64,000 nt of DNA from positions 13,487,001 through 13,551,000 of the forward strand of contig NC_088921.1 of assembly GCF_038396675.1 (NCBI RefSeq). Direction: 5' to 3'. A program made the position numbers and the translations under genes. Positions 20,886 through 46,384 of the stretch are shown here, piece by piece. The notes below the pieces were generated by a model, which was given only the letters and a program-made list of their open reading frames with translations, was not told the origin of the DNA and searched no databases. Position 1 is the stretch's first letter. Each line of letters starts with the position of its first letter. Source of the stretch: Hydra vulgaris (taxonomy: Eukaryota > Cnidaria > Hydrozoa > Anthoathecata > Hydridae).

Positions 20886-20940
20886 AATCATTAAGCTATC
20901 CTAATAATAATTCTCACTAACAACTAAACAAACCAAATTT

Positions 20941-22950: not shown

Positions 22951-23069
22951 TAAAAAAGCAACAAAAGAAAATGAATTAATTCCTTGTCATCTTTTTCAAG
23001 AATTTTAAACATGTTAAACCTTCACTCATTATATTCATTTATTAAATTTAGATAAAAAGACTACTATAC

Positions 23070-24588
23070 TTAAATCGCCACCACACTCCCCATCAACTGC
23101 CTATCCGTAAAGCCTAACAAATAAGTTGCCGAAGACCTGCAAACCAATACGCATGAGCGGCAACCTTGACACACGCCCTCGTTTACCTTGGCCACTGTGC
23201 GCATTTGTACTGAACCGTGCGATAAAGGTATATCTTCTGTAACAATTGCACCATACGGACATACAGAAATACAATTCTGACAACCCGAACGGTTTTCTTT
23301 CAGAATTTTAATCACCATTGGGTCTTTTTTCAGACTGTCGTCTCCAAAAAGTCCGCAAATATTTGCCGTACATGCTGATGCTGATGCCACAGTGTCGGGA
23401 ATATCCTTGGGTGCTTGTCCGCAGTTGGCCAGATAGATGCCCGCCTTGGTGGTTATTACGGGGCACAATTTGGGTTGAGCTTCGGAATAGAAACCGTATT
23501 TGTCGTACGAAATGCCCAACATTCTTGCCAGATCTTTGGCTTCATTTTGAGGCTGTACGGCAGTTGCCAGCACCACCATATCGGCTTCCACTTTTACGGC
23601 TTGTCCCAGTTGGGCGTCTTCGCCTCTCACAATCAGCTTTTTACCTTTTGTATAAATTTTTGACACACGGCCTCGTAAATAGGTGGCTGCGGTTTCGGTT
23701 TGTGCTCAGTGAACGAACTCTTCATAGCTTTTGCCCGCCGCGTGAATATCGATGTAAAAAATATAAGCATGAGAGTCTTGTACTTTATGGTGCAGCAACA
23801 TGGCATGTTTTGCTGTATACATGCAACAAATTTTTGAGCAATATGATATTTTGCTTCATCTCGCGATCCGACACATTTTATAAACACTACATCTTTAGGC
23901 AATTCCCCATCGGACGGGCGAACAGACATACCGTTTGTCGGGCTCGAGGCCGATACCATGCGCTCAAATTGCAATGAATCTATCACATCCGGATTACGTC
24001 CGAATCCATATTCTTCATAAGTTTGTGCATCATACAAGTTATATCCGGTGGCTACCACCACCGCACCGATTTCTCACTCTATAATTTCATCTTTCATGGC
24101 ATAATTGATGGAATCTTTTTTGCACACTTTTTCGCACAAACTACATTTCCTTTTTGTAAGTTTTGTGCAAATTGATTCATCTATCACCTGCTTATTAGGC
24201 ACGGCTTGCGGGAATGGCGAATAAATGGCTGTACGCGTGCTCATTCCGTAATTGAAATCATTGGGTACTTACACCGGGCATTTTTGAGTACATGCACCGC
24301 AACCTGTGCAGCTTTTGAAATCTACATATAATGCTTTTTTCTTTATGGTGGCTTTATAATTGCCCACAAATGAATCTGTATGGTGGCTTTATAATTGCCC
24401 ACAATTCCCCAATTGAATCACTTCGGAACAGGGCAACAGTTCAATATACGGATGGTTGGCCACCTCTGCCATTCGCGGGGTGAGGATGCATTGTGAGCAG
24501 TCGAGCGTAAAAAAAGTTTCGTCCAGTTGCGACATTTTTCCGCCCACCGAGGGGCTTTTTTCAACCAAAACAACCGGCAATTAAGCGA
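23070..24588 (-). pseudogene. hdrA: HdrA-like FAD/Fe-S oxidoreductase, N-terminally truncated and broken
   Basis: Heterodisulfide-reductase subunit A family: flavin-based electron transfer. The FAD-binding GGGIAG start is missing; the fragment begins PVVLVEKSPSVGGKMSQLDE, then TLDCSQCILTPRMAEVANHP. A ferredoxin insert follows in another frame (KSCTGCGACTQKCPV, KRKCSLCEKVCKKDSINYA), then VVATGYNLYDAQTYEEYGFG, VFIKCVGSRDE and VVLATAVQPQNEAKDLARML. Two C-terminal 4Fe-4S clusters are seen: CQNCISVCPYGAIV and CQGCRSCVLVCRSSATYLLG, ending GFTDRQLMGSVVAI at 23070. A 26-bp direct repeat at 24344/24379 duplicates coding sequence; stops and shifts lie near 23668, 23705, 24070 and 24270. Confidence 0.85.
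24344..24404. repeat. 26-bp direct duplication in hdrA
   Basis: Bases 24344-24369 and 24379-24404 are identical (both start TATGGTGGCTTTATAATTGC), separated by 9 bases. It is a coding-sequence duplication. Confidence 0.85.
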
Positions 24589-24984
24589 GGCATGATTTTG
24601 CCAAAAAACATGATTAAAAATGTAAACACATAGATCAAAAAACAAATTCAATAATACGGGTCTGAGCACAATGTGTGAGCTTAAAAGATTTGTAATAAAA
24701 GCAATACATGAAATGTTGATTGCTATATTCGAAACTGAAAATGTGAAAAATAACTTTTGCGGTTGTTCAAGAAGCTTAAAGTATAATTTTGATGATTTGG
24801 TTAGTGATAGTCTTATTTTTTGTGGAAAAGCATCGTTGCTCGAAAAAAATACGATCTCAGCACTCGAAAGCATTGCTTGAATCGTGATGAGCAGTATAAT
24901 GCAGATTGTCAATCGGTATGAAGTCCCCGAAAGTGGATGAATTTGAACACTGAATTGATAGAAACGTCTAAACCAAGTGGACAA
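24589..24984 (-). pseudogene. gldE: GldE-like CorC/HlyC (CNNM-domain) membrane protein, truncated
   Basis: From 24984: an N-terminal membrane helix ICIILLITIQAMLSSAEIVF FSS, then DAFPQKIRLSLTKSSKLYFK LLEQPQKLFFTFSVSNIAIN and ISCIAFITNLL, and in a shifted frame MFFGKIMPRLIAG. The SAE..FFS, LL..P.kLl.t...sN...N and FGeimPk blocks are those of the CNNM/hemolysin-type transmembrane domain. In Bacteroidota the gene after ssb is commonly gldE, a gliding-motility/secretion-associated member, and ssb lies directly upstream here. The gene stops inside FGKIMPRLIA at about 24590, where hdrA sequence begins, so the CBS and C-terminal domains are deleted. Confidence 0.7.
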
Positions 24985-25076
24985 TGTTTCCTAAGTAGAA
25001 AGAAAAAAGTGAATTTTAAATATGCACATTTTATATCGAAAGATATACAAAAAAGGACGCTTTTGCGCCGTGAGTT

Positions 25077-25556
25077 TTAAAATGGTAGATTGTCAACTTC
25101 TTGCACCGGACTAGGAGTGGGTGCTTTGTTTTGCGGGGCATCGTATTGAGCTCGCGGTGCAAATTGCTGAGCTGTACTTGGTATATATTCGCTGCCGATC
25201 GGCGGTGCTAATGGTGCGGACTGACCCGGTGCTGATCCTAATAATTGTAGCGTGTCGCCAAAAATTTCCGTTGTGTAACGTTTCACTCCGTTTTGATCTT
25301 CCCAAGAGCGGTCTCTGATTTTTCCTTCAATGTAAACTTGACTTCCTTTGCGTACAAATTTGTGTGCAAGCTCTCCCAACTGTCTCCACAATACAATATT
25401 GTGCCATTCTGTTGTGGTTTGTTTTTCTCCGTTTTTATTTCAATAGGTTTCAGACGTTGCCAACGAGAAAGCTGCAACCGCGGTGTTTTCTTGAACAACT
25501 CTATATTCGGGGTCTTTGCCCGCATTTCTAACTAAAATTACTTCATTGACTCCCAT
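25077..25556 (-). pseudogene. ssb: Single-stranded DNA-binding protein, one stop
   Basis: ATG at 25556: VNEVILVRNAGKDPEYRVVQ (family has VGNxGKDPE, so Gly is Arg here), AVAAFSLATSETY, then TGA, then NKNGEKQTTTEWHNIVLWRQ LGELAHKFVRKGSQVYIEGK, RSWEDQNGVKRYTTEIFGDT LQLLG, a Pro/Gln-rich tail and the conserved acidic tip DNLPF. About 160 codons, full length. SSB coats single-stranded DNA and recruits partners by the tail; it is essential. Only the TGA near 25440 interrupts it, plus the Gly to Arg change. It lies upstream of gldE in the same direction, the usual Bacteroidota order. Confidence 0.9.
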
Positions 25557-25665
25557 TTTTATGATATTTTTAAAGTCACGTATAAAGTATATCAATTTTT
25601 TATACTTGCAAAATAAATCTGTTTTCAAACCGGGTTTTTATTGCTCTCGTTTGTATGAAAATAAA

Positions 25666-25695
25666 AAACCGATAGTTTACACTAACGGTTTTTAA
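25666..25695 (-). terminator. Terminator of the nucleotidyltransferase gene
   Basis: AAAACCG.TAGT and ACTA.CGGTTTT pair around TTAC, with flanking A and T runs, just downstream of the gene that ends at 25709. Confidence 0.6.
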
Positions 25696-25708
25696 GTTTA
25701 TTTTTGGT

Positions 25709-26614
25709 TTACCAAAGTTTAGCCGGATATTTTCCTGCGTCTACCAGTTCTTGTATTTTTTTCACAGGCGTTTCTCTATCCTCTTGGTAGGTTACTCCAA
25801 ACCATCTTGCGTCCGAGGTCAATACTTTAGTTGTCGCTTTTCCTTGTTTGATCAGAATATCAACACCTGTCGGAACATAAAATACAGCTTTAATGTTATC
25901 TTTGTTTTCTTGGGCAAAATATTTGAAAAAATCACCGAAATATCCGAAAACAAACAGAGTGAAGCCCAAAAAATTCATAGATACGGATTCATAGCCCGTT
26001 AGTTCTACAGATTCTCCGTTTTTGTCTTTGTAAGCAGCTCCGGTGCTCGGTTTTTCTATTGAAGTTCTTTCTACAACGCTTATCAGGTTTTGCTTGTCAT
26101 CTACTTGGCAAACTCTTCTGGCAACGGTTCCGAAGTCGGAAAGTGTGTTGCGCAGACCATAACCGACCATGCTGTAGCTTCCTGTATCGTTTGCATCCAA
26201 TGCCGATAAATATTGTGCCATTACTTCAAAGCCTTCTGCTCCGTAAAAGTCGTCGGGATTGATTACTGCAAAAGGTTCTTTTACCTTACTTGCTGCGCAC
26301 CAAACTGCATGTCCGATGCCCCATGGTTTTGCGCGTTCCGGGTTCAGTGTTATGCCTTTGGGCAATATGTCCAATTTTTAAAAAACGACATCAATATCAA
26401 TTTTTCCCTCGTACTTTTTTAGGATGCTGTTTCTAAAGTCATTCTCAATCGATTTTCGAATGATGAAAACAATTTTCCCAAAACCCGCTCTAATGGCGTC
26501 ATACACTGAGTAATCCATTATTGTTTCACCCGACGGGCCGAATGGGTCGATTTGTTTAAGCCCACCGTATCTGCTGCCCATACCGGCTGCTAATACCACA
26601 AGTGTTGGTTTCAT
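25709..26614 (-). pseudogene. NTP-transferase family nucleotidyltransferase, one stop
   Basis: Sugar-phosphate nucleotidyltransferase fold. MKPTLVVLAAGMGSRYGGLK Q carries the nucleotide-binding GxGxR loop with the conserved Lys; SGETIMDYSVYDAIRAGFGK follows, then VINPDDFYG with the metal-binding Asp pair, and a C-terminal region PVKKIQELVDAGKYPAKLW. About 300 codons, full length. A single TAA (26374, from probable CAA in VVFQKLD) interrupts it. The substrate is not certain: the family contains UTP-glucose-1-phosphate-like enzymes and uncharacterised sugar-nucleotide enzymes. An alternative Met lies two codons upstream (26620). Confidence 0.8.
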
Positions 26615-26756
26615 GTTCACAATTTTTGTTTTTAATTCAGTTTCCGGAATCTTCTAATACGAATTCGCTGCAAAACTAATTAACTTTTTTCATTCGAATC
26701 AAAAAAAGGCTTTTGTTGCATCAGTTTTTTATAGATTATCTCAAGTTTATTTCAAT

Positions 26757-26782
26757 AAAAAAGGAAGCGACTCCTTCCTTTC
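26757..26782 (-). terminator. Terminator of the dnaJ remnant
   Basis: On the minus strand AAAGGAAGG-AGTCG-CTTCCTTT followed by T-run forms a compact hairpin at the dnaJ end. Confidence 0.65.
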
Positions 26783-27235
26783 TTGGCGTAAATTCCGAGT
26801 ATATTCAAAAAAATCTTTCATTTTATTGAAAAAACCTTTGTCTTCGCCTCTTTTTCCAGGTTCAAAAGATTCTGATTTTTGAATCTTTCTATTATTTTTT
26901 CTCTTCTTTGCTTAAGTTTTTCGGAATCCAAACGTTTATCTGAACCAATAAATCGCCTTTTTCGTATCCTTTCACGTCCGGTAGCCCTTTGCTGTGAAGT
27001 CCTAAGATATTACACGGTTGTGTTCCCGGATCTATTTTTACTTTCACTCGGTCGTCTACTGTGGGAAATTCTACCGTTTCTCCCAGAATAGCATTCGTAA
27101 TACTTAAGTAAAGTTTGTGAATCAAATCATTATCTTGTCTAATCAAATAAGGATGTTCTTTTTCCTGAATCAAAACAATCAAATCATCGTTTATTCCGCC
27201 GCGTCTGGCGGCATTACCTTTGCCGGCTACCAAAA
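26783..27235 (-). pseudogene. dnaJ: DnaJ chaperone, C-terminal part only
   Basis: VAGKGNAARRGGINDDLIVL IQEKEHPYLIRQDNDLIHKL is the beginning of the DnaJ C-terminal substrate-binding domain II, followed by TNAILGETVEFPTVDDRVKV KIDPGTQPCNILGLHSKGLP and DLLVQINVWIPKNLSKEEKK. The tail ESFEPGKRGEDKGFFNKMKD FFEY continues in a shifted frame past 26892. The J-domain, Gly/Phe linker and zinc-finger part are missing; coaE sequence abuts at about 27235. DnaJ stimulates DnaK ATPase; this fragment cannot. Confidence 0.85.
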
Positions 27236-27815
27236 GCGAGCTTTGTGAATCTTCAAAACTTGCGGATAAAGTAAGTTTTTCTTATCGTTATTTATTACAA
27301 AGTCTGATCTGTTAATTCTATATTCGTCCAAAAACTGCTTTTCTATTCTTGCTTTTACTTGTTCCTCTTTCAGTCCGTCTCTCATTATTGTTCTGCTTAT
27401 CCTGTTTTTGTCCGGTGCCGTTACCGTGATTATTTTGTCGAAACCGCGGAATGCACCGCGTTCAAACAGAATAGCTGCTTCTTTTATAACGTTTAATTTT
27501 TGTTGAAATTGCATACACAAATTTTCAAAATGCCGAGCTACCAATGGGTGAACAAGTTCATATACGGTTTCTAAAGCTTTCGGATTGTTGAAAATCAAGG
27601 CTGACAATTTTTTTTTATCAATTTTTTCGTTCTCGTTAATGATTTCTATTCCAAAAGCATCTATCATCGAATTTTTAACTCAATGTTATTGTCGTATAAT
27701 TTTTTTGCTTCCCGGTCTGCACTATAAACCGGGATATTCCATTGCTTAAAAATTTTACAGACCAAACTTTTTCCGCATCCTATACCTCCGGTTATACCTG
27801 AGAAAAGTGCACTTT
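27227..27815 (-). pseudogene. coaE: Dephospho-CoA kinase, broken
   Basis: Last step of coenzyme A synthesis. P-loop block SGITGGIGCGKSLVCKIFKQ WNIPVYSADREAKKLYD is readable near 27800-27700, then MIDAFGIEIINENEKIDKKK LSALIFNNPKALETVYELVH PLV, KEAAILFERGAFRGFDKIIT VTAPD and RISRTIMRDGLKEEQVKARI, all characteristic. It ends NDKKNLLYPQVLKIH at 27240 and then fuses to the dnaJ fragment. A frameshift near 27800 separates the ATG from the P-loop, and a break lies near 27668. About 195 codons. Confidence 0.85.
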
Positions 27816-28240
27816 AAGCATTTCTTTGCATTTGGTTAAAAAAATCAGACCTTTCGTGGTTCCACAATAGGTCTGACAAAAAAGATTTTTTGTAGACTGA
27901 GAACGGAATCAAAGTAATCTTCAATTCTGAATCTATCATATAATCTTCAACTTCTTCTTTCATGTCGCTGTTGTCCGGATCGAAATACCCGTTTACGATT
28001 ACGGTTCCACCGTTTTCTTCGTAAATTTTCAATATGTTCAGAATATCAAGTATATAACGATATGAGCTCGTGTCGAAATAAGTAAGCTTGATATTAAACG
28101 TAATAGGTCTAGCCTCTTCTATATAGGTTTTAAGCCACTGTATGAGCGGTGTGTAAAACTCAACGGTTTCTTCTAAGTATGATTCGCCTGCTAGTTCGTG
28201 AGAACTGATGAAAACATCGTGAGAACTGAATGTTCTCCAT
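27815..28240 (-). pseudogene. siaC: SiaC-family regulatory phosphoprotein (DUF1987), broken
   Basis: ATG at 28240 (MENIQFS) then, after a shift inside a 21-bp-period duplication (TCGTGAGAACTGA at 28196 and 28217), GESYLEETVEFYTPLIQWLK TYIEEARPITFNIKLTYFDT SSYRYILDILNILKIYEENG GTVIVNGYFDPDNSDMKEEV EDYMIDSELKITLIPF. The pattern P.e.f.FY.P...Wl..Y......i.f...l.YfNTsSsk.l..il..l is DUF1987/SiaC. SiaC is the anti-anti-sigma-like partner phosphorylated by SiaB and dephosphorylated by a SpoIIE phosphatase; a SpoIIE protein is at 5772-8180. Confidence 0.75.
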
Positions 28241-28261
28241 AATATTGTTGTTGAAATATAT

Positions 28262-28560
28262 TATTAATCCTTATACTTATTTACTTTCACGGTAATTGCA
28301 AAAAACGAAAGCTCATCGTTTATTGGCGTGACTTCAAAATCTAAGGGATTGGATGAGGTAAAAGCTACTTGAATGCGATCATTGTGTGCACTTCCTTTTG
28401 ATCCTTGCGGAAGGTTTCTTTGCTCCCTTTTGTATTTTCTTAACTCTACTTTGTCTAATGAAATTATGATTTCACATTTTTCGATAACCAAAGCGATGTC
28501 TTTATTCATTACTACGTTACCGGTCAAAAATTTATAGTGGTCATTGTGTTCTGCAATAAC
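28262..28560 (-). pseudogene. SiaB-type kinase, C-terminal remnant
   Basis: Uninterrupted frame EHNDHYKFLTGNVVMNKDIA LVIEKCEIIISLDKVELRKY KREQR then ISLQ-type tail to NDELSFFAITVKVNKYKD, stop at 28264. Placement directly upstream of siaC and general features fit the DUF6272/SiaB-like kinases that partner SiaC in Bacteroidota; the ATP-binding N-terminus is absent because der sequence takes over at about 28560. The call rests mostly on context. Confidence 0.5.
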
Positions 28561-28886
28561 TATTGAGCAAATCTGGTTATTTCAAACTCTATATCTACTG
28601 CACCTGTATGATGATCTACAAGTATAATGATGACATCCGCTTCTTCGACAGCCAAAATAATTTGTTTGCGAACTTCTTCAAAAATATCGTCTGAATTCAT
28701 CACATATCCGCCGGTGTCGATCACCGAAAACCCTACTCCGTTCCAGTTCGTCTTCCCGTAGTGACGGTCTCTGGTTGCTCCGCTCGAATCGTGAATAATG
28801 GCTTGTCTTTTGCCTATTAATCTGTTAAACAAGGTCGATTTACCTACATTCGGACGCCCCTACCATTGTTACAATACTCAAATTTA
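28560..28886 (-). pseudogene. der: Der (EngA) ribosome-assembly GTPase, N-terminal fragment
   Basis: Frame SIVTMVG(R)PNVGKST is readable with one extra G at about 28850; then LFNRLIGKRQAIIHDSSGAT RDRHYGKTNWNGVGFSVIDT GGYVMNSDDIFEEVRKQIIL AVEEADVIIILVD, the first G domain of Der (P-loop, switch and DTGG). The usual initiator codon seems to be TTG in place of ATG. Homology ends after VDIEFEITRFAQ near 28560, where siaB sequence starts, so most of domain 1, all of domain 2 and the KH domain are lost. Der follows era in Bacteroidota, as here. Confidence 0.85.
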
Positions 28887-28926
28887 GCGAAAATTATGCG
28901 CTGCACGCATGGATTTTAAAACTTAT

Positions 28927-29803
28927 ACTTCGTAACCGAACTGACGCAGTTTACTGTCTCTGTCTCTCCAGTCTTTGTCTACTTTCACCATAAGTTCAAG
29001 ATACACTTTCGACCCCAAAAACTCTTTAATACTTCTTCGAGCCTCTGTTCCAATTTTTTTATGGCTGCACCTTTGTTTCCGATAATAATTCCCTTTTGAG
29101 AATCTCTGGCTTCATAAGTAATTCCACGAATAAAAACAGGATCTTCATTTTCACGGTATTCCACAATTACTACGTGGGTAGAGTAAGGAACTTCTTTTTG
29201 ATAATAGAGTAAGATTTTTTCACGAATAATCTCCGATGCAAAAAAACGCATCGACGTGTCCGTAAGTTGCTCCTTATCAAAATAAGGCGGACTTTTGGGC
29301 AGCAACTCAAGAATTTGTTTCAAGATCAGATCTAAATTGAATTAATGAAGTGTCGAAGCCGGAAAAATGATAGCTTCAGGCAAAATTTCTCTCCATTGTT
29401 CATAAATTACATCCAATTTCTCTTGATCTATAATGTCTATCTTATTGATGACCAATACAACAGGCACATCTGAAGTTTTATTTTATTTAAAAAGCCTTAT
29501 TTTTCTCAGGTTTCTCGTAAACCTCTGTTATATAGAGAAGTAAATCAGCATCAGAAAGCGCAGAATTAGCTGCTTTCAGCATTATTTCCTGCAATTTATA
29601 AGCAGGTTTCAGTACTCCGGGAGTAACGGAATAGACGATTTGGTAATCATCGTGGTAATCAACAATTCCCATGATTCTGTGGCGGGTGGTTTGCGCTTTT
29701 GATGTGATAATGGAAAGCTTCTCGCCAACCATCGCGTTCATTAGGGTAGATATGCCAACATTCGGATTGTCGACTATGTTCACAAATCCGGCTTTGTGGA
29801 CAT
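28927..29803 (-). pseudogene. era: Era GTPase, broken and with a lost P-loop lysine
   Basis: Era binds the 3' end of 16S rRNA and assists 30S maturation. Readable: [20 protein letters not shown], where the family has GNPNVGKST, so the P-loop Gly is Asp and the essential Lys is Ile (ATA at 29751-29753). [34 protein letters not shown], then KQILELLPKSPPYFDKEQLT DTSMRFFASEIIREKILLYY and the KH domain RDSQKGIIIGNKGAAIKKLE. The tail VDKDWRDRDSKLRQFGYEV is in a shifted frame to 28927. Stops and shifts lie near 29486, 29343, 28985 and the start. About 290 codons. Confidence 0.9.
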
Positions 29804-29980
29804 GTTTTGTATGATTATATTGAATTGGAAATGAATCTGATTTATCCCGTTTAATTGTAAAAACAGAAAAAAACGGATACTGATAAATTCCGTGAGCAAA
29901 AACCGTTTTGAGTTCGGCAATTGCTCGCGGCCTATAAGGAATCGCAACTTGATGTACAAGCAGGTTGCATTTGAAAAGTA

Positions 29981-31317
29981 TTATTCGTAAGCACCCATCT
30001 TGAGCAGATTCACCTCAACATCGCTAAGGAAACGCCATTTGCCTCTAGGTATACACTTTTTTGTCAATTTTTTGAAATACACTCTGTCAAGCTTCAAAAC
30101 ATTGTATCCCAATGCTTCTACCATACGTCTTACGATACGATTTTTGCCGGACCGATTTTTTATTCCAATCTCAGATTTGATGTCAGATGAAGGATATTCT
30201 ACAACATCTGCCGATGCAAGTCCATCTTCCAATTCAATTCCCGAAACCATTTTTACCATATCTGCTCTGGTGATATTCTTATCGAGCAAAACGTGGTAGA
30301 TTTTTTTTGCGGTTATATTTCGGATGTGTTAAGCTCTTTGTCAATACTCCGTCGTTTGTCAACTGCAGTACACCTGTAGTGTTTCTGTCCAATCTCCCAA
30401 CCGGGTAAATTCTTTGCTCCACCTCACTGCCAACCAAATCCATCAATGTTTTTCTTTCTCCTAGTCATCGGTAGTTGTCACGTAACCCTTTGATTTATTA
30501 AGGAGAATTTATACTTTTTTCTCCGGTTTTATCATTTGACCGTCAAAACGTACCTCGTTGGTTCTGGAAACCTACCTTTACACCCATTTCGGTAACAGTT
30601 ACCCCGTTTGCCTGAACAAATCCGGACTGAATATAAGTATCAGCCTCTCTGCGAGAACAAACTCCTGAGTTGACATCAGACGCAGTGTTCCGTCATCAAC
30701 TTTCGATTTATCTTGGTTTTCTTGTCTGAAAGGCCTTTCGGTATTTCTCTTTGAGTCGGAAAGATTAAACACTTTCTGTTGCTTACCCTCTGCCCTGCTG
30801 TCGCTTTTTCCAAAACCTGGTTTCTGTCCGGGTCGAATCGTGGTTTCCTGTCACTGCCGAAAGCCGGTTTTTGCTCATCATTTCTTCCGCTGCGTTAATT
30901 TTACTGCGTAAAACGCTTTGGTTCGTTGCTTTTTTGAGGTTTAAAAGTGTTCTCTTCGGTTTCGAATTGGTTTATTCTTTTTTTCACTAATTTAAACCCT
31001 CCGATTTTTTCTTCACTTCTTTTCGAAATGCCTCGCTACTTTAGCTTCTGTATTCTCTTGGAGAATCTTTATCTCCCAGCCCCTATTCTTTCCAAATACG
31101 TTCTTCTTCTGTCTCCGTTCTTTTTCTCGCCTACCGGTTTACTGCTAAATCTCTCCCCGCTATCGGAGCTTTTTGTAGCCCCAACCGTTGACCTTGTGCA
31201 AGAGTGGTTGCTCCCTCTTGCTGTCGTTCTAGTTGAACCGCCTGACCGACTTTTTTCACGGTCTTTCCCAAATCCTCCCGATTTGCTGCTGCCAGAACTC
31301 CTAATTCTACCTTTCAT
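29981..31317 (-). pseudogene. rluB: RluB-type 23S rRNA pseudouridine synthase, broken
   Basis: Start at 31317: MKGRIRSSGSSKSGGFGKDR E, a basic Gly/Ser/Arg-rich N-terminal extension common in Bacteroidota RluB. Then an S4 RNA-binding domain (CSRREADTYIQSGFVQANGV), catalytic block YPVGRLDRNTTGVLQLTNDG with the key Asp in GRLD, and C-terminal KYNRKKIYHVLLDKNITRAD, ELEDGLASADVVEYPSSD, IGIKNRSGKNRIVRRMVEAL GYNVLKLDRVYF ending GAYE. About 430 codons. Stops and shifts lie near 30300, 30480-30520, 30560 and 30950. A plus-strand frame over 30947-31330 is a shadow of this gene. Confidence 0.8.
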
Positions 31318-31587
31318 CGACGTAAAATAAAACTGTAAATGTTTTGATTATAAAACTAATAGATATTTACAAAAGAATAAAATCTATTCTTCTAAATTAC
31401 TAAAAATATCGAATAAATAAAAATTTTAAATAAAAACTAAAATTGCTCTTTTGACACTTCTGACAGAACAAATCTTTGATTGTATAATTTAGCCAACAAA
31501 AAAATCAAGTTTTGGAACGGAGTCAAAAAAAAAGTGCAACACTTTTAAAGCACAGCACGCTATCAATCAATATCGTAAGACTATAAA
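31318..31587. other. Spacer between rluB and wecB
   Basis: AT-rich intergenic sequence with A-runs. I see no ORF, tRNA or convincing terminator. Confidence 0.5.
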
Positions 31588-32730
31588 TTATCGAGAAAGG
31601 ACTTCGATAATTCTTCCGCATGCTTTGCCGTCTCCGTAAGGAGTGTTGGCTCTTGACATACTTAAATAATATTTCTTGTCTGAAAGTAAAGCAGAAATCT
31701 CCGAAAAAATTTTAGCTTTATCGGTTCCTACGAGTTTTACAGTTCCCGCCTCAACAGCTTCCGGTCTTTCAGTGGTATTTCTCATCACAATCACGGGCTT
31801 GCCCAAACCCGGAGCTTCTTCTTGAACTCCGCCGCTGTCTGTCAATACCAAATACGAACGACTCATCAAGTACACGAAGGGCAAGTAGTCTAAAGGCGCA
31901 ATAAGATAAACGTTTGAGATACCCTTCAAAAGTGCATTAACAGGCTCTTGCACATTCGGATTGAGGTGAACAGGGTAAATAATACTTGCTTCGGGATGTT
32001 TCAAAGCAGTTTCTTTGATTCCTTCACAAATATTGATAAAGCCGTCACCGAAATTTTCGCGACGATGACCGGTTACTAAAATAATTTTCTGATCATTTAT
32101 AATGTGTTCAAAATCATGCAAATCTTGCTTCAATCGTGCAACTATCCCTTCCTTTACCTCTGCTTTGCTGTCGATTTTTGCAATTGTCAAATGTAAAGCA
32201 TCGATCACAGTGTTTCCGGTGACTGTAATTGCTGCTTCATTAACATTCTCAGTTAGCAGATTATTTTTCGACCAAGGAGTCGGCGCAAAATGAAAAGTGG
32301 TTATTCTTCCCGTCAGCTGCCTGTTCATTTCTTCGGGCCATGGAGAATATATATTGTTTGTTCTCAAACCGGCTTCAACATGACCAACCGGAATCTGTTT
32401 GTAAAATGCGGCTAAAGCAGCTGCCGTAGATGTACTTGTATCGCCATGAACGAGAACTACATCCGGTTTAAAATCGGCAAGTACATCCCTCATTCCAAGC
32501 AAAACCCTGGCTGTGATATCATAGAGATCCTGCCCGGCTTGCATAATATTGAGGTCGTAATCAGCCTTAATATCAAAGATATTTATCACCTGGTCGAGCA
32601 TCTGTCTGTGCTGAGCGGTAAGGCACACTCTTGTATCAAAACGATCTTGATGTTTTTCAAACTCTTTCACTAAAGGAGCCATTTTAATAGCTTCCGGTCT
32701 AGTTCCAAAGACAATAAGAATTTTCTTCAT
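31588..32730 (-). CDS. wecB: UDP-N-acetylglucosamine 2-epimerase, intact
   Basis: Non-hydrolysing epimerase converting UDP-GlcNAc to UDP-ManNAc, precursor for enterobacterial-type common antigen, capsule or teichoic-acid-like sugars. An uninterrupted 380-codon frame runs from ATG at 32730 to TAA at 31588, the normal length. Conserved blocks are all present: FGTRPEAIKMAPL, VLVHGDTSTS, GHVEAGLRT (catalytic Glu), WPEEMNRQLTGR (second Glu), GNTVIDAL, VTGHRRENFG (His), HLNPNVQEPV, LTDSGGVQEEAPGLGKPVIV and NTTERPEAVEAGTVKLVG. It is the only recognisable bacterial gene in the window without a break, and it lies about 1.1 kb from the junction with host-like DNA. Whether it is expressed cannot be read from sequence; no intron, splice leader or animal promoter is evident. 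Confidence 0.97.
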   Translation of the reverse strand: MKKILIVFGTRPEAIKMAPLVKEFEKHQDRFDTRVCLTAQHRQMLDQVINIFDIKADYDLNIMQAGQDLYDITARVLLGMRDVLADFKPDVVLVHGDTSTSTAAALAAFYKQIPVGHVEAGLRTNNIYSPWPEEMNRQLTGRITTFHFAPTPWSKNNLLTENVNEAAITVTGNTVIDALHLTIAKIDSKAEVKEGIVARLKQDLHDFEHIINDQKIILVTGHRRENFGDGFINICEGIKETALKHPEASIIYPVHLNPNVQEPVNALLKGISNVYLIAPLDYLPFVYLMSRSYLVLTDSGGVQEEAPGLGKPVIVMRNTTERPEAVEAGTVKLVGTDKAKIFSEISALLSDKKYYLSMSRANTPYGDGKACGRIIEVLSR

Positions 32731-32829
32731 TTCAAAGTTTGATTGAGTTACTGTATAAACAGATTTCCGATAAACGAATAATTCTGCAAAAAAAGCAAGT
32801 TATTTCGAGATAAGACTCAGCAAATTAAA

Positions 32830-33826
32830 TGAGAATTAAAAGAAAAATTTCTTAAATAAAAATCCTCGATCGTTTTACAGATAATCTTATAAGCTTTGCA
32901 CATACGGGGAGTGATAGCAATAGTTTGAGTAACATCTCTTCTACAAGATAAAAACGGTTTTATATGGGTTGGAACAGCTAAACGCGGATTGAACAAATAC
33001 AATCCCAAGACTCACACATTTGAATGTTACAAAAACGAACCGACAAACCCGATGAGTCTGAGTGTCGACAATGTTATGACCATTTACCAAGACAGGAGTG
33101 AGAATCTATGGATAAGAACCTCACTTGGCGGTGTAAACAAATGGGATAGTCACGAACAGGGGTTTGAGTTGATGCGACAAAATCCGTTTTCAGTCGACTC
33201 TTTGTCTTCTAATAAGGTACGGTGTATTTTTGCAGATGATGATGACAAATTATGGATTGCTACTGTAGATGGCGGACCAAATATGTAGGACCCAAAAACT
33301 TCTAAAAGGAAACAATGGGAACACGAATCCAACAAACCAAACACAATAAGCCACAATCATGTAAGAACTATTACTAAAGACAAATCAAATAATTTTTGGA
33401 TCGGGACAGACGGAGGCGGAATAGACTGTGTCAACACACAGACCGGGAAGTTTAAAAATTATCATAATGAAAAAGATGACAAACCTCCCTTCAAACAATG
33501 TTTGGAAAGTAGTGATAGATGCGCATGACAATGTTTGGGTTGCAACAAGCGGCGGTGGACTGGCAAAACTAAATCCGTACGGAAAAAATTTACCATCTAT
33601 TCGTATGACCCAAACACACCCAAATCACTTAGCGACAACAAAGTAACTACGCTTTTCGTAGATCACAACTAATATCTTTGAATTGAAACTTTTGGTGGCG
33701 GATTAAATAAATTTGATCAAAGTGCCAGCACTTTTATCCGTTACAAATATGACAGAAATAATATACACACTATAGGCAATGATCGAAATTACTCTATTCT
33801 CGAAGATAAATCAAAACATTTATGGA
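32830..33826 (+). pseudogene. Two-component-type sensor with beta-propeller repeats, cut by the junction
   Basis: Successive Reg_prop units typical of Bacteroidota hybrid sensors: SLLQDKNGFIWVGTAKRGLN KYNPKT, DNVMTIYQDRSENLWIRTSL GGVNKWD, NKVRCIFADDDDKLWIATVD GG, HVRTITKDKSNNFWIGTDGG GID, NNVWKVVIDAHDNVWVATSG GGLAKLNP, and SILEDKSKHLWI. Stops lie at about 33288 and 33530, with shifts. The last unit should continue with GT..GG, but after HLWI at about 33826 the sequence becomes AT-rich host-like DNA. The kinase, receiver and AraC-type output domains are therefore absent. Upstream, 32740-32830 holds the divergent wecB leader. Confidence 0.85.
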
Positions 33827-33840
33827 TTAATTTCTTTAAG
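33820..33840. other. Junction between bacterial block and host-like DNA
   Basis: The propeller protein reading breaks after TTATGGATT (HLWI); from there composition shifts at once to about three-quarters A+T with no bacterial coding pattern. No N-gap, insertion sequence or obvious microhomology marks the site, and the exact base is uncertain by about 10. Confidence 0.7.
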
Positions 33841-34118
33841 CAGACATGAAAGTAAGTTTCTTTATTAATATTATAAAAACAAATGACAAGTCTAAAATTA
33901 TCCGAAATGCAAAGAATTTATTATTTTTTAATTATCTAATAACGTTCATGTTACATCCTGATTGCAAAACACTAAAGTTATTACATAATTAATTATAGCT
34001 ATTCACAACTTCCTCTGAAATAATTTTTCTATTATTTGAAATTTTTGATGTTTAGACATTTTTCCTGATAAACCTATTGATGGAAAAAACATGATGTTGA
34101 AAATAAGTTAGATAAGTG
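33841..34118. other. AT-rich host-like sequence, no feature
   Basis: No coding or repeat family recognised between the junction and the TA satellite. Confidence 0.5.
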
Positions 34119-34683
<565 letters not shown>

Positions 34684-34730
34684 CGTGCGGCCTTGGCGTA
34701 GTGGTATCTAAGAGTAAACACTTTAATAAC
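34684..34730 (+). other. Possible SINE/tRNA head fragment
   Basis: GTGCGGCCTTGGCGTAGTGG followed by TATCTAAG resembles a tRNA 5' half with an A box (TGGCnnAGTGG) but no B box or 3' half follows. It may be a truncated SINE next to the TA tract. Confidence 0.35.
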
Positions 34731-36820
<2,090 letters not shown>

Positions 36821-36832
36821 TTGTAAATCAGC

Positions 36833-36920
36833 CTAAAGCGGACATATATGTATAAAAAGTCCATCCTAAAACGGACCGTTTCTTAAAGCGGACAGTTTGC
36901 TGTCCGCTTTGCGTTTTGCG
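36833..36920. repeat. Hairpin-bearing GTCCGCTTT repeat
   Basis: AAGCGGACAGTTTGCTGTCCGCTT is a perfect inverted repeat of about 10-bp arms; AGCGGACATATA and TCCTAAAACGGACCG nearby share the same core. The core GTCCG-TTT recurs at 37091, 37453, 37864 and 38219, linking this to the repeat that follows. Confidence 0.6.
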
Positions 36921-37439
36921 ATTGAACTTTAGCTGAGTTACTTGGTTTAAGTTATCAAAACTTAGACTATAAGTTTTAAAATTGTGTATAAAGTAAATAG
37001 AATTTTAAAAAAAAGCAATTGGTTGATAGACTTGTCAAACTTTTCACTTTCTTTTTTTATCAGTGTATATCTCCTAATAGTAAAAACGTGTCCTAAAACA
37101 GACATTTATAAAAATCTTGTTTTTCATAGTTTGTTTGAAATTCTTCTTTTATATCTAAGTTACAATTGTTTATAAATACTATTTATTTGCTATATTTGTT
37201 TAGTGGTACCTTATATAAAAAAATAATCCAATATTTTGTAAAGTGTGTATCTTATACAACATATACAATTAATTTTGAACCAAGAAAACAGAACTGTTTT
37301 TACTGTTTCTCTAAAACATTTTTGATATGAAAACGTTAGCAAATTATTTATTAATATTATTATTAGTATTGTTATTATTAGTGTTAGCATTTAAGTAATT
37401 AAGAGTCTAAACTTTCGTTTATTAGCATTTCTATTCATA

Positions 37440-38300
37440 ATTTTACTTTTTCATGTCCGCTTTAAGTTAACTTTTTACTCATTACTTTTTGAGTAAAGTA
37501 CTCTTATTGTTTGCAATTATATATGCAAATTTATTATAAGAAAACAATACGAAATATTGTGCTTTTTTTTATTATTTAACTTTGTTATAATAAACTTTTT
37601 AAAACTAAGAGAAAATACAAGATCGTTTTTATTTTGTTGTTGTGGCTTTCCATCAAAGACTGTTTTACGTTTGTTTTTACGCACATAATTTTTATATATA
37701 CTTATATACACTTATTTATTAAACCGAAAATTATTTTTACGTGAAAAAAAAGTCTGCGTATAGATTTAGTTAATTAATTTATTTTATTTGTGTGTAAATA
37801 ATTTTTAAATATTTTTATAAAAAGAAAAAGGAAAAAACACCAGGTATATTTTATATAAATATATGTCCGTTTTACGTTGAATTTTAACATAAAACTGATT
37901 AACTGAACATAATGAACATTGAATATACTAAATAACTTATATAGCTTTATTTTTTTAAATTATAACTTTTTATAAAACAAAAAAAAAAATCTTTCATTGA
38001 TTATTTATATATTTTTTAGCATTTCTTCCGAACACCGCTTTACGTTTGTTTTTAACGCACTTGCATGATTTTAAAATATACTCTTATATACTTATTCAAT
38101 AAACCAAAATTTACTTAGGTAAGGTATTTAATTTATTTGTTTTAATTATGTGTGTAAATATTTGTAAAATATTTATATAAAACAGAAAAGAAAAACATTA
38201 TATTTAACAAATGTATATGTCCGTTTTAGGTTGAATTTTATCATGAAACTGATCGAATATATTGAATGACTTTTATAGCTTTTTATTTTTCATTCATTCA
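37440..38300. repeat. Diverged tandem repeat, period about 355-375 bp
   Basis: Landmarks recur in the same order: ACGTTTGTTTTTACGCAC (37664) and ACGTTTGTTTTTAACGCAC (38039); TGTCCGTTTTACGTTGAATT (37864) and TGTCCGTTTTAGGTTGAATT (38219), each followed by a TATAGCTTT. A partial third copy starts at 37453 (GTCCGCTTTAAGTTAACTTT). No protein is encoded. Confidence 0.7.
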
Positions 38301-38433
38301 AATTACAAAGAATTTGCTTTTCGAATTTTTTCGAACTTTTTTTTAACTTTTTATAAAGTTGAAAGCAAACGCTTTTGAAATTGGTTAGTCGAAGAAACAT
38401 GAAGAAGTTTAAAGAACAAAGTTAGAGCAGCTC

Positions 38434-38629
38434 CAGTGACGGATCCAGAAAGTCAAGGGGAGTGATGAGTTAGGGAATGATGAACCCTCTCCCCCTCAAT
38501 ACCAGAATCTGAAAGTCCTAAAATATATTAGAAATGTAGGACTTTTTTTTTGACGCAAATGGATACAAAATATAAAAATGTTTCAGTACCCCTCTCTCTT
38601 CCCCAACAAAGTTCCTGTATCCGTCACTG
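38434..38629. mobile_element. Non-autonomous hAT-type MITE
   Basis: About 196 bp. The left end CAGTGACGGATCCAG and the right end, reverse complement CAGTGACGGATACAG, are inverted. Flanks AGCAGCTC (38426-38433) and AGCAGCTT (38630-38637) match at 7 of 8 bases, an 8-bp target-site duplication as made by hAT transposases. No coding capacity. Confidence 0.8.
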
Positions 38630-38989
38630 AGCAGCTTAAACATACTGTCAATTAAACAAATCTTTTAGTATATATTTATAAACAGCCTAATACTTCTGAT
38701 ACCTCAAATAGTGTTTTAATTTGGAAATCATCGACGTTGTTGCTTTTTTGACAACGATTACGAAAATTCATTACCAAGTTCGAAAAATAGAGCTAAATAG
38801 AGGACATTTGAATTGAACTTATTCAAATAATATATTTAAAATTAATTCAGTAAAGTTTGGAAGACGGTCAATTTTATTTGAACCTCAATTGGTTTCTAAA
38901 ATTGGTTGTTTATGTTCTTTCATTTTTCTATAGAAAAACATAATCTAAAGATTATGTTTTTTCAATATTTTCATAAATTAATCAAGTTA

Positions 38990-39190
38990 TTTTATATAAC
39001 ATATTTATTTAAGTTATATATATATAATATTTATTTAAGTTTTGTTTTATTTATTTAAGTTATATTTTATTTATTTAAGTTTATTTATTATTTAAGTTTA
39101 TTTATTATTTTATTTAAGTTTATTTATTATTTAAGTTTATTTATTATTTTATTTATTTAAGTTATATTTATATAATATTTATTTAAGTTT
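38990..39190. repeat. Minisatellite of ATTTAAGTTTATTTATT units
   Basis: Irregular array of ATTTAAGTT and TATTTATT blocks over about 200 bp. Confidence 0.8.
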
Positions 39191-39277
39191 TGCGTTAGGT
39201 GAAACTATTTATTTACTCGTGAGAGAGTCCATGGCGCGAAACTTCAATGTTGAAATATTTTTTCAACGGGTAGTATA

Positions 39278-39420
39278 GAGTGACGGATACAGAACTATTT
39301 TTAGGAAGGATGGTGATACAAAAATATATTTTTATAAAAATTAGGCTCTCGATTTCTTTTGTATTAAAGGACTTAAATATTCTGCTCGGGTATTATGCAA
39401 CTTCCCTGGTGCCGTCACTC
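39278..39420. mobile_element. Second hAT-type MITE, degraded
   Basis: Left end GAGTGACGGATACAGAAC and right end GGTGCCGTCACTC are inverted; flanking octamers GTAGTATA and ATTGTATA match at 6 of 8. Related to the copy at 38434. Confidence 0.6.
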
Positions 39421-41373
39421 ATTGTATACAAAATTATTTTTGAAATAATATTTTTTTGATTTTATTTTCTTTTGTATTATTTTATATTATGTTTATGCTT
39501 TAATTATTATATGGTTAAGTAAAATCTGTTGAGTCCAAATTCATATTAAACGACATGTAAACTGAAAAGATATGTATGAATGTTTTTTAATAAAGAAAAA
39601 TTTCTGAGTTTTTTTTCTTTTGAAAAATTATAGTTTTTTTCACTTTATCTAAATTATTTTTACAGTCAGAAGAATGCAGCGTAAAAAATGCATATTATAC
39701 AAAAGAGATTAAACAAGGTATATTATACAAAGAAAATTTATTTTTTAAATAGTTATCGAAAGCTTCCCATTGCCTGTACGAGTTCAACAAATTGTTAAAA
39801 GAACGACGAATATACACAATTAGTATTTTTCTTTTTTTTAAACAAAAATATTGTATCAAAAAACAAAGAAAATGTTCATAAACAATGTAGATGTTCATAA
39901 ACAAAAGCTGGTTTATGCTTTAAAGCTATAGAGAATGAAAATTAAAAATAATGGAGTTATTAATTACCAAAAATATAAATCCTATTACATCAAATAATAT
40001 TCTAAACCGATACAGCGCAGCAATAAAATAAGAAAGTCAAGAAACAGTTATTGTGCTACTCAATTCAAAAATATATTTTAATAACAGTATTTTATATTAT
40101 AGTATTTAAAATATCTTATATTATAATATTTAAAATATAACAGTTATTTTTTAACAGCAGCCGCACAAAAATCACTTAAATATAAATAGTTGTATTCAAA
40201 AAGTTCAATACTAGATACATTTTTAAAACCAGATTCTAAAAGAGGATAAAAAAATATAATGCTAAAGAAACTTTCACCTTTTATTTGTAAAACAAATTAC
40301 CATTTGTACAAGATACTTTTTGTCACTGTATCGTATAAGAAAATACAAAAATTTAGTTTTTCGCGAACTCGCTAATGCGTTTAGTTCAAAGGCATTTTGG
40401 TATTTAAAGAAAAGTTCGTAATCATTTTTAGTTTACTTTCATAATAAAAAAAAAGTTTAAAATTTGTTGTCAAAAAAATTTTACATTTTTTTACACAAAT
40501 TGTAAAAAAAGAAATTATCAGCTGAGATATAAAGCTTCGTGTATAACTGTAACGCAATGCCCCACTGTCCGAAAATATCGTGCTCTACCTACACTCCATG
40601 ATGTTTTTTCTAATTTAATAATTGCATATTTGCCGTTGTTGGCTTAGTTAACTTAACGTGACGTCACGCTTTTTTAAAATAAACCAGTTATACTAAAAGA
40701 GTTCTAATTACTCTAAACTTAATGCTATAACTAGCTCATTGCAAGTTCACTGGTAGGCTAGCAGATAGTTTAATATAATGTTTTATATTTCAGCAGTAAT
40801 GCATGCATGCATCAAATAAAAACACATTAGTTTTTGTACCCAACTAAAAAGTTTTAACCTTTTATCACTATAAATATCACATGAAATATAAAACAAAAGA
40901 AAAATATTTAAAACTCAAAAAGCTAAAAAAAAAGTTTTTCTTCAATAAGATTTTAATATCTTTTTTTTTAATTTTTTTTTTTTAATTTGGTGATGAACTT
41001 TAGTCATTTTTTGTTACCCCTAACCCCTCTTGATTTAAATTTAAATGTGTCTATTCCATCGAATTTATTCTGGTTAATTAAAGAATTATTACCAACATAA
41101 CTGAATTGACGTAGATAAAACATGGCATTGTTCTTTCAAATTTTGAAGAAATAAGGTAGGTTGTTAAATTGTGTTTCCAATGATCGTAAAACTTTTACTT
41201 AAAATTATCTAAATTAATATAAAAACCAGCGCATATGTAGTATAAATTTTTTTCTGTTTGTTTTAAAAAGTCCTTCCAGGATTTGCTGTCACCTATATCA
41301 ACTTAAAGCACCGCAATTGAGCATTTAATATGACATACACGTTTCTTTTCCTTTTGTTTTTTTATTTTATTTG
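39421..41373. other. Host-like DNA without a recognisable gene
   Basis: AT-rich, with homopolymers and a GCATGCATGCATC stretch near 40800. No coding family or RNA gene recognised. Confidence 0.4.
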
Positions 41374-41572
41374 TTAATTTTGTGTTCCCCAAGAATTCTT
41401 TGCGGATTTATCACACAGCACCGCAAAAGAGCATCTGGATGGAAGTTCACGCCTCCTTCCTTTACCGATGTTCCGATGTTATAAAACTTACCCAGAGGTG
41501 GGGTTCAAACAAGGGATCTTTTGTTTCTGAGTCAAGTGCGCTATTACAACACCACAGCTTCCCAATAAATAA
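41374..41572 (-). mobile_element. tRNA-derived SINE
   Basis: On the minus strand the head reads GGGAAGCTGTGGTGTTGTAA with an A-box-like TGTGGTGTTGTAATAGCGC, an anticodon-arm-like CTTGACTCAGAAACAA, and a B box GTTTGAACCCC in the right spacing (about 40 bases after the A box). The body runs from there to CTTGGGGAACAC and ends in an A-rich tail. This is RNA polymerase III promoter architecture in a SINE, not a working tRNA. A related fragment (CACCGCAATTGAGCAT) lies at about 41310. Confidence 0.7.
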
Positions 41573-43265
41573 ATAAAAACTCAGTAAGTCAGTGCTCATT
41601 AAATAAAAACTTTAAAAAAAAAGTTATTGTATTTTATGTTATATGAAAGTTATTGTAATATTAAAAGTCTAAACTGTTATTAATTCTACTTCTTTGCTGT
41701 TGCAATTTTAATTGAATCGAGTTGAATCGATAATTGAATTTATAATCGAGATAATAATGACTTTAAGGTTTCACTTTTTATTCTAGAAAACATGCAAGAC
41801 GCTTGGTTGTCACAGTAATTGCATTCAAAAACTTTTTTTGTTGAATAAAATGAAAAAAGTTGATAATGTTTTCTTTAGTTTTTTTAAAACTATGTGTTAT
41901 TAAATTTTTTTTTGCTTTGTTATAAAACTATTTTACTTTTAAATCGCTGTTAATCTTTAACGTATAGGGAAAAGACGCCTATGGTGGCATTGCGCCTGTA
42001 ACGGGATAGTGGTCATAATTCCATTAAAATTGGTTTTGGTGAAAAAGTGATTAAATCTACAAGACTGTACTGACTTTACATTAAATCAAATTTGGAATAT
42101 GCTGTTGTAGTTTTGTTCCCATCGTATGTTTAAGATTGTGGTTTTATTGTTAACTGTGCAGGGAGGGAATTTTCATGCATTTTATATTTATATTTTGTGC
42201 ATTTAGTGGAATATTTACTTTATTTTTATCTTTTTAACAAGGCAGATACAGCTTGTTTTAATGAAATTGATGACTTTTTCTCAATGATGGCATACTGACG
42301 AGTTGGGTGTGTTGCAATATTGATGAGTTGATAAAACCTTTTTTTCAAGAAAAACTTATTTTCAATTAAAGTAAAAAGAAAGCGATGCTTCAAAAGTTTC
42401 TTTTTTTGTCCAAAAAATACATGTAACGCAATATATCCAATGCGCATGCGCAAAACCTAAAAATGCTGCTGTGTAGAATGAAATTCTAAGTAAAGATAGT
42501 TGCGAATAATTTCTGGCTTTTTTGAGGGAAGACTTTAAAGTTGTATGAAATCATCAGGTTACCCTTGATCCTAACCAGCGCCCATCCTCCCCTATGCCAT
42601 CATAGGAGCAGTGGTTCCCTATGATGGCAAACTTTTTCTGTTGTTTTTTTTTAAATAAGAATAACTTTTAAAAAAACAAAACTGATAAAAACTTCCGAGA
42701 ATTTTTATTGTTCTAGATGTAACAAGGTATGTATCCATATCAAAACTTTTATTATTGGTCTTCGGGATACTGAATAATTTTTTTTTTTTTAAAGTTATAA
42801 GTTTGCCGTTGGTAAAATTGGTAAAATATACACATGGCGGGGGCAAGAAAAAGACAAAATAGTCTTATCGCCAAGCTCCCAATATTCCGTAAATAATATA
42901 GCTATCAAATCTTGTCATTAAAAAAGTTATCAAATATAAACAAAAAACAAAAGACATAAAAATAAATAAAATAAATTCTAAAACTTATTTTTAAATATAA
43001 TTCAACACAAAACAAAAATAAAAAATAAACAAACAAACAAAAATGATATTTGAAAATATATATGAATGATCTTAATTACTGCGATTAAGAATTCTTAATT
43101 AGGAAATATAAAGAAAAGAATTTAAACTTCTATAGCAAGACCTTTAGTTTTTCATAAAAAGAAAATAAAAAATAAGTTTTTTTTTGAACTAAGTTTTTAA
43201 ATCTTTGCAAATAAAATGAAAATATACTATACAATATTTTAAAGGCCAACAAATAAATATAGCTC
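41573..43265. other. Host-like DNA without a recognisable gene
   Basis: Includes CTATGATGGCAT-type fragments near 41970, 42595 and 42620 that recur around 44610 (a dispersed repeat), but no coding family. Confidence 0.4.
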
Positions 43266-44545
43266 TAGAAGAAGTCCTTCATGTTTTGATTAATTAAAAT
43301 TATTTCTTTTAGTTTTGATTTAAAAATATTTATGTTTGCAAGCGTTTTGATGTCATTTCTAATTACTTTACTCCATAGTTGAGGGCCTCTAATTGTGATG
43401 GAAAACTTAGTGGCTTCAAAGTGATTTTTAGTTTGAACATAATTATTGTTTGCATGTCTAATAAGGTATTTGTGCTGTTTTTTTAAATAGTGTTTTAAAA
43501 ATATTTAGCATCGTATCGTTATTGATTTTATACATAAAAATTAAATGATGATATATATTTATTTGGTAATTATTTAAGATTTTTAAATTAATAAATAGTG
43601 GTTGTGAATGAGAGAGACGGTCTGCGTTGGATATTATTCTTATGGCATGTTTTTGTTTGTTAAATAGTTTGTTTTTTGTTTTTTTATTGGTGCTGCACCA
43701 AGCAATGTTAGCATAATTGAGATAACAATGAAAAAAAGAGAAGTAGATATATTTTAAGTAAGTTTGATTTAGATATGGTTTTACCTTATAAAGTATGCCA
43801 ATATTTTTAGAAATTTTATTTTCGATTAATTTTAAGTGGTTTGTCCAGGTAATATTTTCGTCAAGAAGAACACCTAGAAACTTCATTGGGTGTTCTCTTT
43901 TTATAAATTGATTCCCGATGCTAATATTCCGGAGCTTTAGAGGAATTTCGTCTCTTTGATAAAAGCGATGAAAAAAAAAATATACTTCGTTTTGGTTAAG
44001 TTTAACGACAATTTATTTGTGTTAAACTATTCAGTTAATTTTAACAGTTCTTTGTTGACTGTTTTAAATAGAGTTTTTATGTTACTATGAGAATAAAATA
44101 ATTTGGTATCGTCAGCAAACAAAATAGAGTCTAAAATATTCGAAGCTCTGCTTAAGTCGTTAATGTAAATTGAAAACAAAAGCGGTCCTAAAATGGATCC
44201 TTGACGAACTCCACAAGCGATTGTCCTATTGTCAGTTTTACCACCATCATAAGAAACATACTGCTTTCTATTAGGCAAGTAGCTTTTAAACCAAACTATA
44301 TTTGCATTCTTAACTCCGTAATTTACTGGTTTTTTTACTAAGATATGGTGGTTGACTGTGTCGAAGGCTTTGCTAAGGTCTATAAAAATACCTTATGTAT
44401 ACTCTTTTTTATTAAAGGCTCGAAAAATATCATAAACAAGTTTAAGAATAGCATGATCAGTTGAATGACCTTTTTTGAACCGAAATTGTTTGTTGTATAA
44501 AATATTATTTGTTTCTAGGAAAGAGAATAGTCTATTATACATTAT
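43266..44545 (-). mobile_element. Non-LTR retrotransposon reverse transcriptase, 5'-truncated
   Basis: Read leftward: FRFKKGHSTDHAILKLVYDI, IDLSKAFDTVNHHILV, then CGVRQGSILGPLLFSIYIND L and SILFADDTKLFYSH (the FADD box, two catalytic Asp), PMKFLGVLLDENITWTNHLK, LNQTYLKYIYFSFFHCYLNY ANIAWCST, KQKHAIRIISNADRLSHSQP, and the C-terminal RGPQLWSKVIRN. This is the RT and connection region of CR1/Jockey-type elements, abundant in Hydra. One stop splits KLTE*FN, and TAT*GIF is another. The endonuclease is missing, typical of 5' truncation on insertion. Confidence 0.85.
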
Positions 44546-45279: not shown

Positions 45280-45716
45280 CAAGTGTCGACCTTTCGAAAA
45301 CCTTCGGTACGGTTGATCATCGCATCCAACTTGAAAAAAGGAAATTAGGGAGTAAACGAAAACAATTAGTTGTTGGTAATGACAACTATCTCAGTATTTG
45401 TTTAATTATAACCTGTGGAGTTCCACAAGGTTCAATCCTCAGATCCCTCCTTTTTTTAATCTATATAAACGATTTAAGTAAAGCTCCTAATCTGATAAGC
45501 ATCATGTTTGCTGATGATACTAATATATTTATTTCTCAGAGTGATATTAGCGAACTTTTTCCCACCGTAAATAAAAACGTTAAACTTTTATTCCACTGGT
45601 TCAAATCCATTAAGTTAACATTAAATACTGACAAAACTAAATGGACCCTCTTTCATTCGCAAAAAACTTTTGTTCTCAAACTTGCCTCAAATCTTGATTA
45701 TTATATAATCAGTTAA
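45280..45716 (+). mobile_element. Second non-LTR RT fragment
   Basis: SVDLSKTFGTVDHRI, then CGVPQGSILRSLLFLIYIND LSKAPNLISIMFADDTNIFI continuing to a Trp/Lys-rich segment. Same family as the fragment at 43266-44545 but opposite strand and more damaged (ILRSLLF for ILGPLLF). Confidence 0.8.

Positions 45717-46306: not shown

Positions 46307-46384
<78 letters not shown>
46307..46384. repeat. (TA)n microsatellite
   Basis: Pure TA dinucleotides, about 78 bp. Confidence 0.95.

Follow-up and report, generated by a model that had tools for sequence, protein, structure and literature searches.

A stretch of Bacteroidales-type chromosomal DNA, approximately 36.6 kb long, is very probably embedded in a chromosome of Hydra vulgaris, with Hydra-type DNA on both of its sides. 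Taken as a whole, the observations are very probably best explained by an embedded bacterial insertion which has decayed, and in which one gene, wecB, is intact. The analysed stretch of 64,000 nucleotides, referred to as the window, corresponds to C2:13,487,001-13,551,000 and is located in a 73.04-Mb contig of an assembly of 911.5 Mb (911,502,276 bases) in 15 contigs. HydraT2T_AEP has been published as an assembly of 912 Mb in 15 gapless chromosomes and was, according to the accessible text of the publication, generated from HiFi contigs by Hi-C scaffolding, gap filling with Nanopore reads and polishing with Illumina reads (PMC12220107). The words “bacteria” and “contamination” do not occur in the accessible main text of this publication.

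The initial annotation had described a 33.8-kb bacterial block fused without a gap to AT-rich animal DNA carrying transposons. The switch from bacterial to animal DNA near position 33,826 of the window is reflected in a drop of the GC content and in the location of bacterial gene pieces to its left and of Hydra-type elements to its right (Table 1). The GC content amounts to approximately 0.37 at positions 1-33.8k versus approximately 0.27 at 34.7-64k (0.369 in the block and 0.273 in each of the flanks). Windows of 200 bp with a GC content below 25% account for 2.4% of the in-window part of the block, and for 36% and 34% of the right and left flanks, respectively. The CpG content did not clearly separate the two halves of the window. 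The join is indeed gapless, since the window is free of N, as is the entire region from C2:13,425,001 to 13,551,000.

The length of 33.8 kb holds for the part of the block within the window (1-33,826), whereas the whole block extends from approximately C2:13,484,250 to 13,520,826. About 2.75 kb of it lies to the left of the window, and further left Hydra DNA resumes, the GC content being back at the level of the flanks (100 kb leftward of the window were examined). The left end of the block was located by composition and reading frames with a precision of roughly 150 bp, and not on the basis of an aligned empty site. One of the five bacterial-type pieces detected left of the window matched a Pfam model at E 0.001 (Rce1-like, just above the cut-off), while the remaining ones were named by eye or left unnamed. 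Apart from this continuation and end on the left, the initial annotation had overlooked the decay of the genes and the inverted duplication of the flanks; its account of the junction itself stands.

Table 1. Features within the window. Positions refer to the window.
Feature	Position	Strand	Basis
In-window part of the Bacteroidales-type block	1..33826		Composition, gene pieces, Pfam
valS pseudogene with 8 in-frame stops and 3 frameshifts	3032..5691	+	Frameshift-aware alignment to P0241
SusC-type TonB receptor pseudogene, several pieces	15787..18838	-	Plug and CarbopepD_reg_2 in the first piece; second piece without Pfam match
Pieces of ssb, dnaJ, coaE, siaC, DUF6272, GTPases read as der and era, rluB	25077..30850	-	Pfam; rluB by eye, without Pfam match
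wecB, intact UDP-GlcNAc 2-epimerase ORF of 380 codons	31588..32730	-	Pfam, alignment, genome search
Two-component propeller pseudogene, truncated by the junction	32929..33826	+	PF07494 and frame
Right junction: propeller frame stops at HLWI, Hydra similarity starts	33820..33832		Frame and shuffle test
Hydra sequence adjoining the junction, holds (TA)n tract	33827..34684	+	78-79% identity to C2:13566347-13567164
Right arm of the inverted duplication, portion inside the window	36708..64000		Reverse match to the left arm
Reverse transcriptase piece	44027..44392	-	Pfam; stretch present only in the right arm
DDE_1 transposase element	52196..53757	-	Pfam and protein matches; stretch present only in the right arm

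The block ends inside a propeller-sensor repeat, as had been proposed. The match to PF07494 lies in the piece at positions 32929-33288, and the frame, which contains stops, can be traced to the motif HLWI at approximately 33,826. The Hydra DNA on the other side of this point has a second copy in the same orientation about 45 kb downstream. When compared with this second copy, the 126 bases to the right of 33,826 reached a score of 99, which exceeded all 500 shuffles, whereas the 126 bases to its left reached a score of 30, which was equalled by 97 of the 500 shuffles. A comparison of the two junction zones for a target-site duplication yielded direct matches of at most 11 bp, which are AT-rich and may be due to chance. 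Just right of the junction there is a (TA)n tract of approximately 560 bp (34127-34683).

The right half of the window was correctly characterised as AT-rich animal DNA with transposons. In addition to its low GC content it contains two reverse transcriptase pieces according to Pfam and an open reading frame of DDE_1 type, which we take to belong to a Tigger/pogo-type element. The two best-scoring named matches of the latter are proteins of Hydra vulgaris (96% and 90%), and two further matches without names share 97% and 96%. Also in the left flank five of the ten pieces matched models of transposable elements, namely Mutator, Tc3-type, hAT (two pieces, one of them slightly below the cut-off) or RVT_1. 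No match was obtained in a blastn search of positions 34700-42000 against phages. Animal repeats from the flanks were not detected by blastn inside the block, which would be a little surprising if the insertion is old.

The Pfam scan of the bacterial pieces resulted in matches for 20 of 33 pieces at E <=0.001. Besides the genes listed in Table 1, the matched pieces include ksgA, an LPG-synthase-type membrane protein and alpha-amylases; SusD and rluB were identified by eye. In the pieces between 25077 and 30850 the Pfam models are mostly covered only in part. The nearest named relatives on the donor side are Marinilabilia, Carboxylicivirga and other Bacteroidales. Bacterial insertions in animal nuclear genomes usually derive from a heritable endosymbiont. 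The predicted WecB protein shares 87% with its closest relative, P0122, and 68-70% with the proteins of Marinilabilia and Carboxylicivirga, while the valS product shares 81% with P0241 and approximately 60-62% with the next listed relatives, including Marinilabilia, Tenuifilaceae and Salinivirgaceae. A blastn search of positions 26000-33800 against plasmids returned 57 records, none of which had one place covering 80% of the query; among the 20 rows listed, the matches were mostly located within wecB. The scan of viral contigs revealed one distant epimerase.

The clearest record of decay is provided by valS. Its alignment with P0241 comprises 807 codons, and the in-frame stops replace K, W, L, Q, K, L, W and S. 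In the tree the branch leading to the window sequence measures 0.205 versus 0.043 for P0241 and is thus approximately five times as long. The gene has accumulated point substitutions and small indels in the manner expected of DNA without a function. Sequencing error was considered as the cause of the broken frame and rejected, since eight of the eleven lesions exchange a sense codon for a stop. An altered genetic code was likewise rejected, because the stops stand in for K, W, L, Q and S alike, so that no recoding is indicated. Simulated decay gave 0.048 substitutions per site since the death of valS when based on the stops (interval 0.021-0.095), and 0.036 when based on changes at conserved sites (interval 0.025-0.050). 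Genes other than valS and wecB were observed merely as broken pieces, their lesions being counted by eye, and the loci fetched around wecB hardly covered them.

Valyl-tRNA synthetase is an essential enzyme. With valS dead and taken as essential, the block represents neither a healthy bacterial contig nor the genome of a symbiont. In the initial annotation an assembly chimera had been named as the alternative to an insertion. Such a chimera or contamination, in which the assembler would have joined a bacterial contig to Hydra DNA, should be joined on one side only and carry undamaged bacterial genes, neither of which is observed. Since the gaps of HydraT2T_AEP were filled with raw Nanopore reads, as stated in the accessible text of PMC12220107, wrong joins are possible in principle. 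However, Hydra-type DNA resumes beyond the other end of the block, the nonsense codons in valS take the place of sense codons, unlike the indel-type errors of reads, and a branch about five times as long as that of the relative is not expected of living bacterial DNA. Taking this into account, a chimera appears very improbable.

The genomes of symbionts can hold many pseudogenes, and on these grounds a living, degenerate Bacteroidota symbiont might come to mind, with its genome incorporated into the chromosome during scaffolding. Against this stand the death of valS, the presence of coaE, ssb and the two GTPases just as partial pieces, and the Hydra-type flanks on both sides in one contig without any N, which make this scenario extremely improbable. 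The preferred reading, a large bacterial insertion into the nuclear genome of an animal as already suggested by the initial annotation, is supported by the two Hydra-type flanks, the decay of valS and the chromosome scale of the assembly. The bacterial DNA is contiguous with host DNA on both sides, and decay as non-functional DNA is documented for valS by alignment to a relative, the other genes being present as partial pieces.

In this decayed surrounding wecB contains neither stops nor frameshifts. It was represented by a single match in the genome search and covers positions 5-346 of the 347 positions of PF02350 (Epimerase_2), i.e. the full length of the domain. The residues D97, E119, E133 and H222 align with D95, E117, E131 and H213 of 1f6d (positions counted by hand), which are presumably the catalytic residues of that enzyme. 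The full-length domain together with the Asp, the two Glu and the His at these positions assigns the predicted protein to the non-hydrolysing UDP-GlcNAc 2-epimerases (WecB). It resembles the bacterial WecB proteins (PDB 1f6d, 3dzc) in both respects, and differs from them in that its gene resides in the chromosome assembly of an animal.

The rate of change in wecB differs from that in valS. The branch of the window sequence (0.098) is about equal to that of P0122 (0.103). Changes that occur only in the window were found at 2 of 181 conserved sites in wecB versus 33 of 408 in valS (Fisher test, 5e-4 at a conservation threshold of 0.9; 8e-5 at 0.8 and 5e-3 at 1.0). Sites were regarded as conserved if they were conserved in the 40 listed relatives of the respective gene, with the sister protein keeping the residue. 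At the threshold of 0.9 this set aside 47 gapped, 4 stop or frameshift, 22 shared-change, 6 sister-only and 2 both-different sites in valS, and 5 shared-change sites in wecB. The test of constraint relies on valS as the one comparison gene, valS being the sole one with a close relative. A binomial value multiplied by 22 amounts to 7e-4; it assumes one uniform decay rate, and wecB was chosen post hoc among roughly 22 genes according to a count by eye. The relative rate and the conserved sites suggest that selection has acted on wecB in Hydra.

The intactness of the reading frame by itself is weak evidence, since other stretches of approximately 950 bp in the block are also open, namely the start of SusC (322 aa) and an amylase-like piece (316 aa, identified by eye, without Pfam match). 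Moreover, between 5 and 10% of the simulated wecB copies were free of stops at d 0.04-0.06. Both observations are in line with a real insertion in which wecB has stayed intact through chance and nothing in the block has any function, a scenario to which we assign a minor but considerable share of probability. It is opposed by the small number of changes at conserved sites in wecB compared with valS. We consider it somewhat more probable than not that selection in Hydra has maintained wecB as a functional UDP-GlcNAc 2-epimerase, which would convert UDP-GlcNAc to UDP-ManNAc.

No AATAAA motif was found close to the 3' side of wecB, the nearest one being located at 30,976, approximately 600 bp away. 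A pyrimidine run ending in CAG was observed about 50 bp before the start codon (32760-32830, minus strand); as a speculation, it could act as a splice acceptor.

The two Hydra flanks are copies of one another in opposite orientation, with the left arm at C2:13,455,246-13,475,408 and the right arm at C2:13,523,708-13,553,585. With every base of the left arm counted once, 14,586 aligned bases differ by p 0.103 (JC 0.110), corresponding to approximately 0.055 per arm. Five stretches of more than 1 kb occur only in the right arm, the left arm running on unbroken at these places. One of them carries the DDE_1 open reading frame and another one a reverse transcriptase piece, while a third (57.6-59.3k) was assigned to hAT by eye, the single scanned piece of it having no match in Pfam. 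At least one stretch, of approximately 2.2 kb, is restricted to the left arm. The arms may alternatively be two copies of a large dispersed repeat which lie in opposite orientation by chance. This seems rather unlikely, as the colinear match over approximately 20-30 kb and the stretches confined to one arm, two of them with transposon reading frames, resemble a segmental duplication.

Half of the distance between the arms (0.055) is near the decay of the block itself, so that a single repair event which captured the bacterial DNA is possible. The Bacteroidales-type stretch presumably entered the germ line of Hydra and has been inherited for long enough to accumulate roughly 4-5% of neutral substitution. 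In the proposed history of a single event, a chromosome break would have been repaired by joining in the bacterial piece of approximately 36.6 kb, along with 20-30 kb of adjacent Hydra sequence copied in inverted orientation. The bacterial content would since then have decayed with the exception of wecB, retained under selection as a working host enzyme. That the block was joined during the same break repair that made the flanking inverted duplication is put forward tentatively. The joint reading, comprising one break-repair capture with an inverted copy, the decay of all other bacterial genes and a selected, working wecB, is unlikely to be correct in all of its parts.

Two separate events, in which the bacterial DNA entered a pre-existing inverted duplication, are at least as likely as one repair event, and we give them a little less than an even chance. 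The spacers between arm and block are unequal, with 8.8 kb on the left and 2.9 kb on the right. When compared at very high sensitivity they shared merely weak matches of 58-78%, partly in AT-rich simple sequence, apart from one match of 31 bp at 90%. Furthermore, the arm estimate exceeds both estimates for the block and lies outside the narrower of the two block intervals; however, the wider one, 0.021-0.095, contains it. The longer, left spacer holds an element of approximately 3.7 kb (C2:13476904-13480622), whose inverted ends of about 600 bp are 80% alike and which includes a hAT-type piece.

To our knowledge, the known cases of working bacterial genes in animals all lack bacterial surroundings. 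If the reading of an insertion with one selected gene is true, the domestication of a gene has been caught while its dead bacterial surroundings are still present. With a decayed block in which one gene is maintained, it would become possible to study, at one locus of a laboratory animal that has chromosome-level assemblies, both how the DNA entered and how selection acts on a newly gained gene. The case also shows that contamination should not be assumed automatically when an animal assembly contains bacterial sequence.

Large bacterial insertions in animals are already known; our searches of open-licence PMC papers yielded no prior report of the Hydra block. Large Wolbachia insertions have been described, in the accessible text of the respective articles, for the tsetse fly Glossina morsitans (PMC3998919) and for Drosophila ananassae (PMC4299567). 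The Hydra block shares with them the presence of large stretches of bacterial DNA in the nuclear genome of an animal. According to the accessible text of a review, the transfers from Wolbachia to insects probably took place recently, have diverged only minimally from the donor sequence and show no evidence of function (PMC3798261). The Hydra block differs from the Wolbachia insertions, as far as these articles describe them in their accessible parts, by its Bacteroidales-like donor, its cnidarian host, its decayed valS and the one gene that is apparently kept. The PPOD genes are bacterial-type genes which Hydra is thought to hold and whose family has expanded in Hydra; dead bacterial surroundings are not mentioned in the accessible text of the corresponding article (PMC3531485), whereas decayed bacterial DNA is still kept around wecB.

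Two tandem duplications of 23 bp, exact or near-exact, were observed in the block (1387-1431 and 19493-19537). Short tandem duplications are a weak fingerprint of the host, their numbers being 2 in the block, 13 in the left flank, 4 in the right flank and 5 in ten control loci, which were taken from the 80 bacterial loci fetched. Finally, the block has a match of 97 bp on C1, with an identity of 75%.
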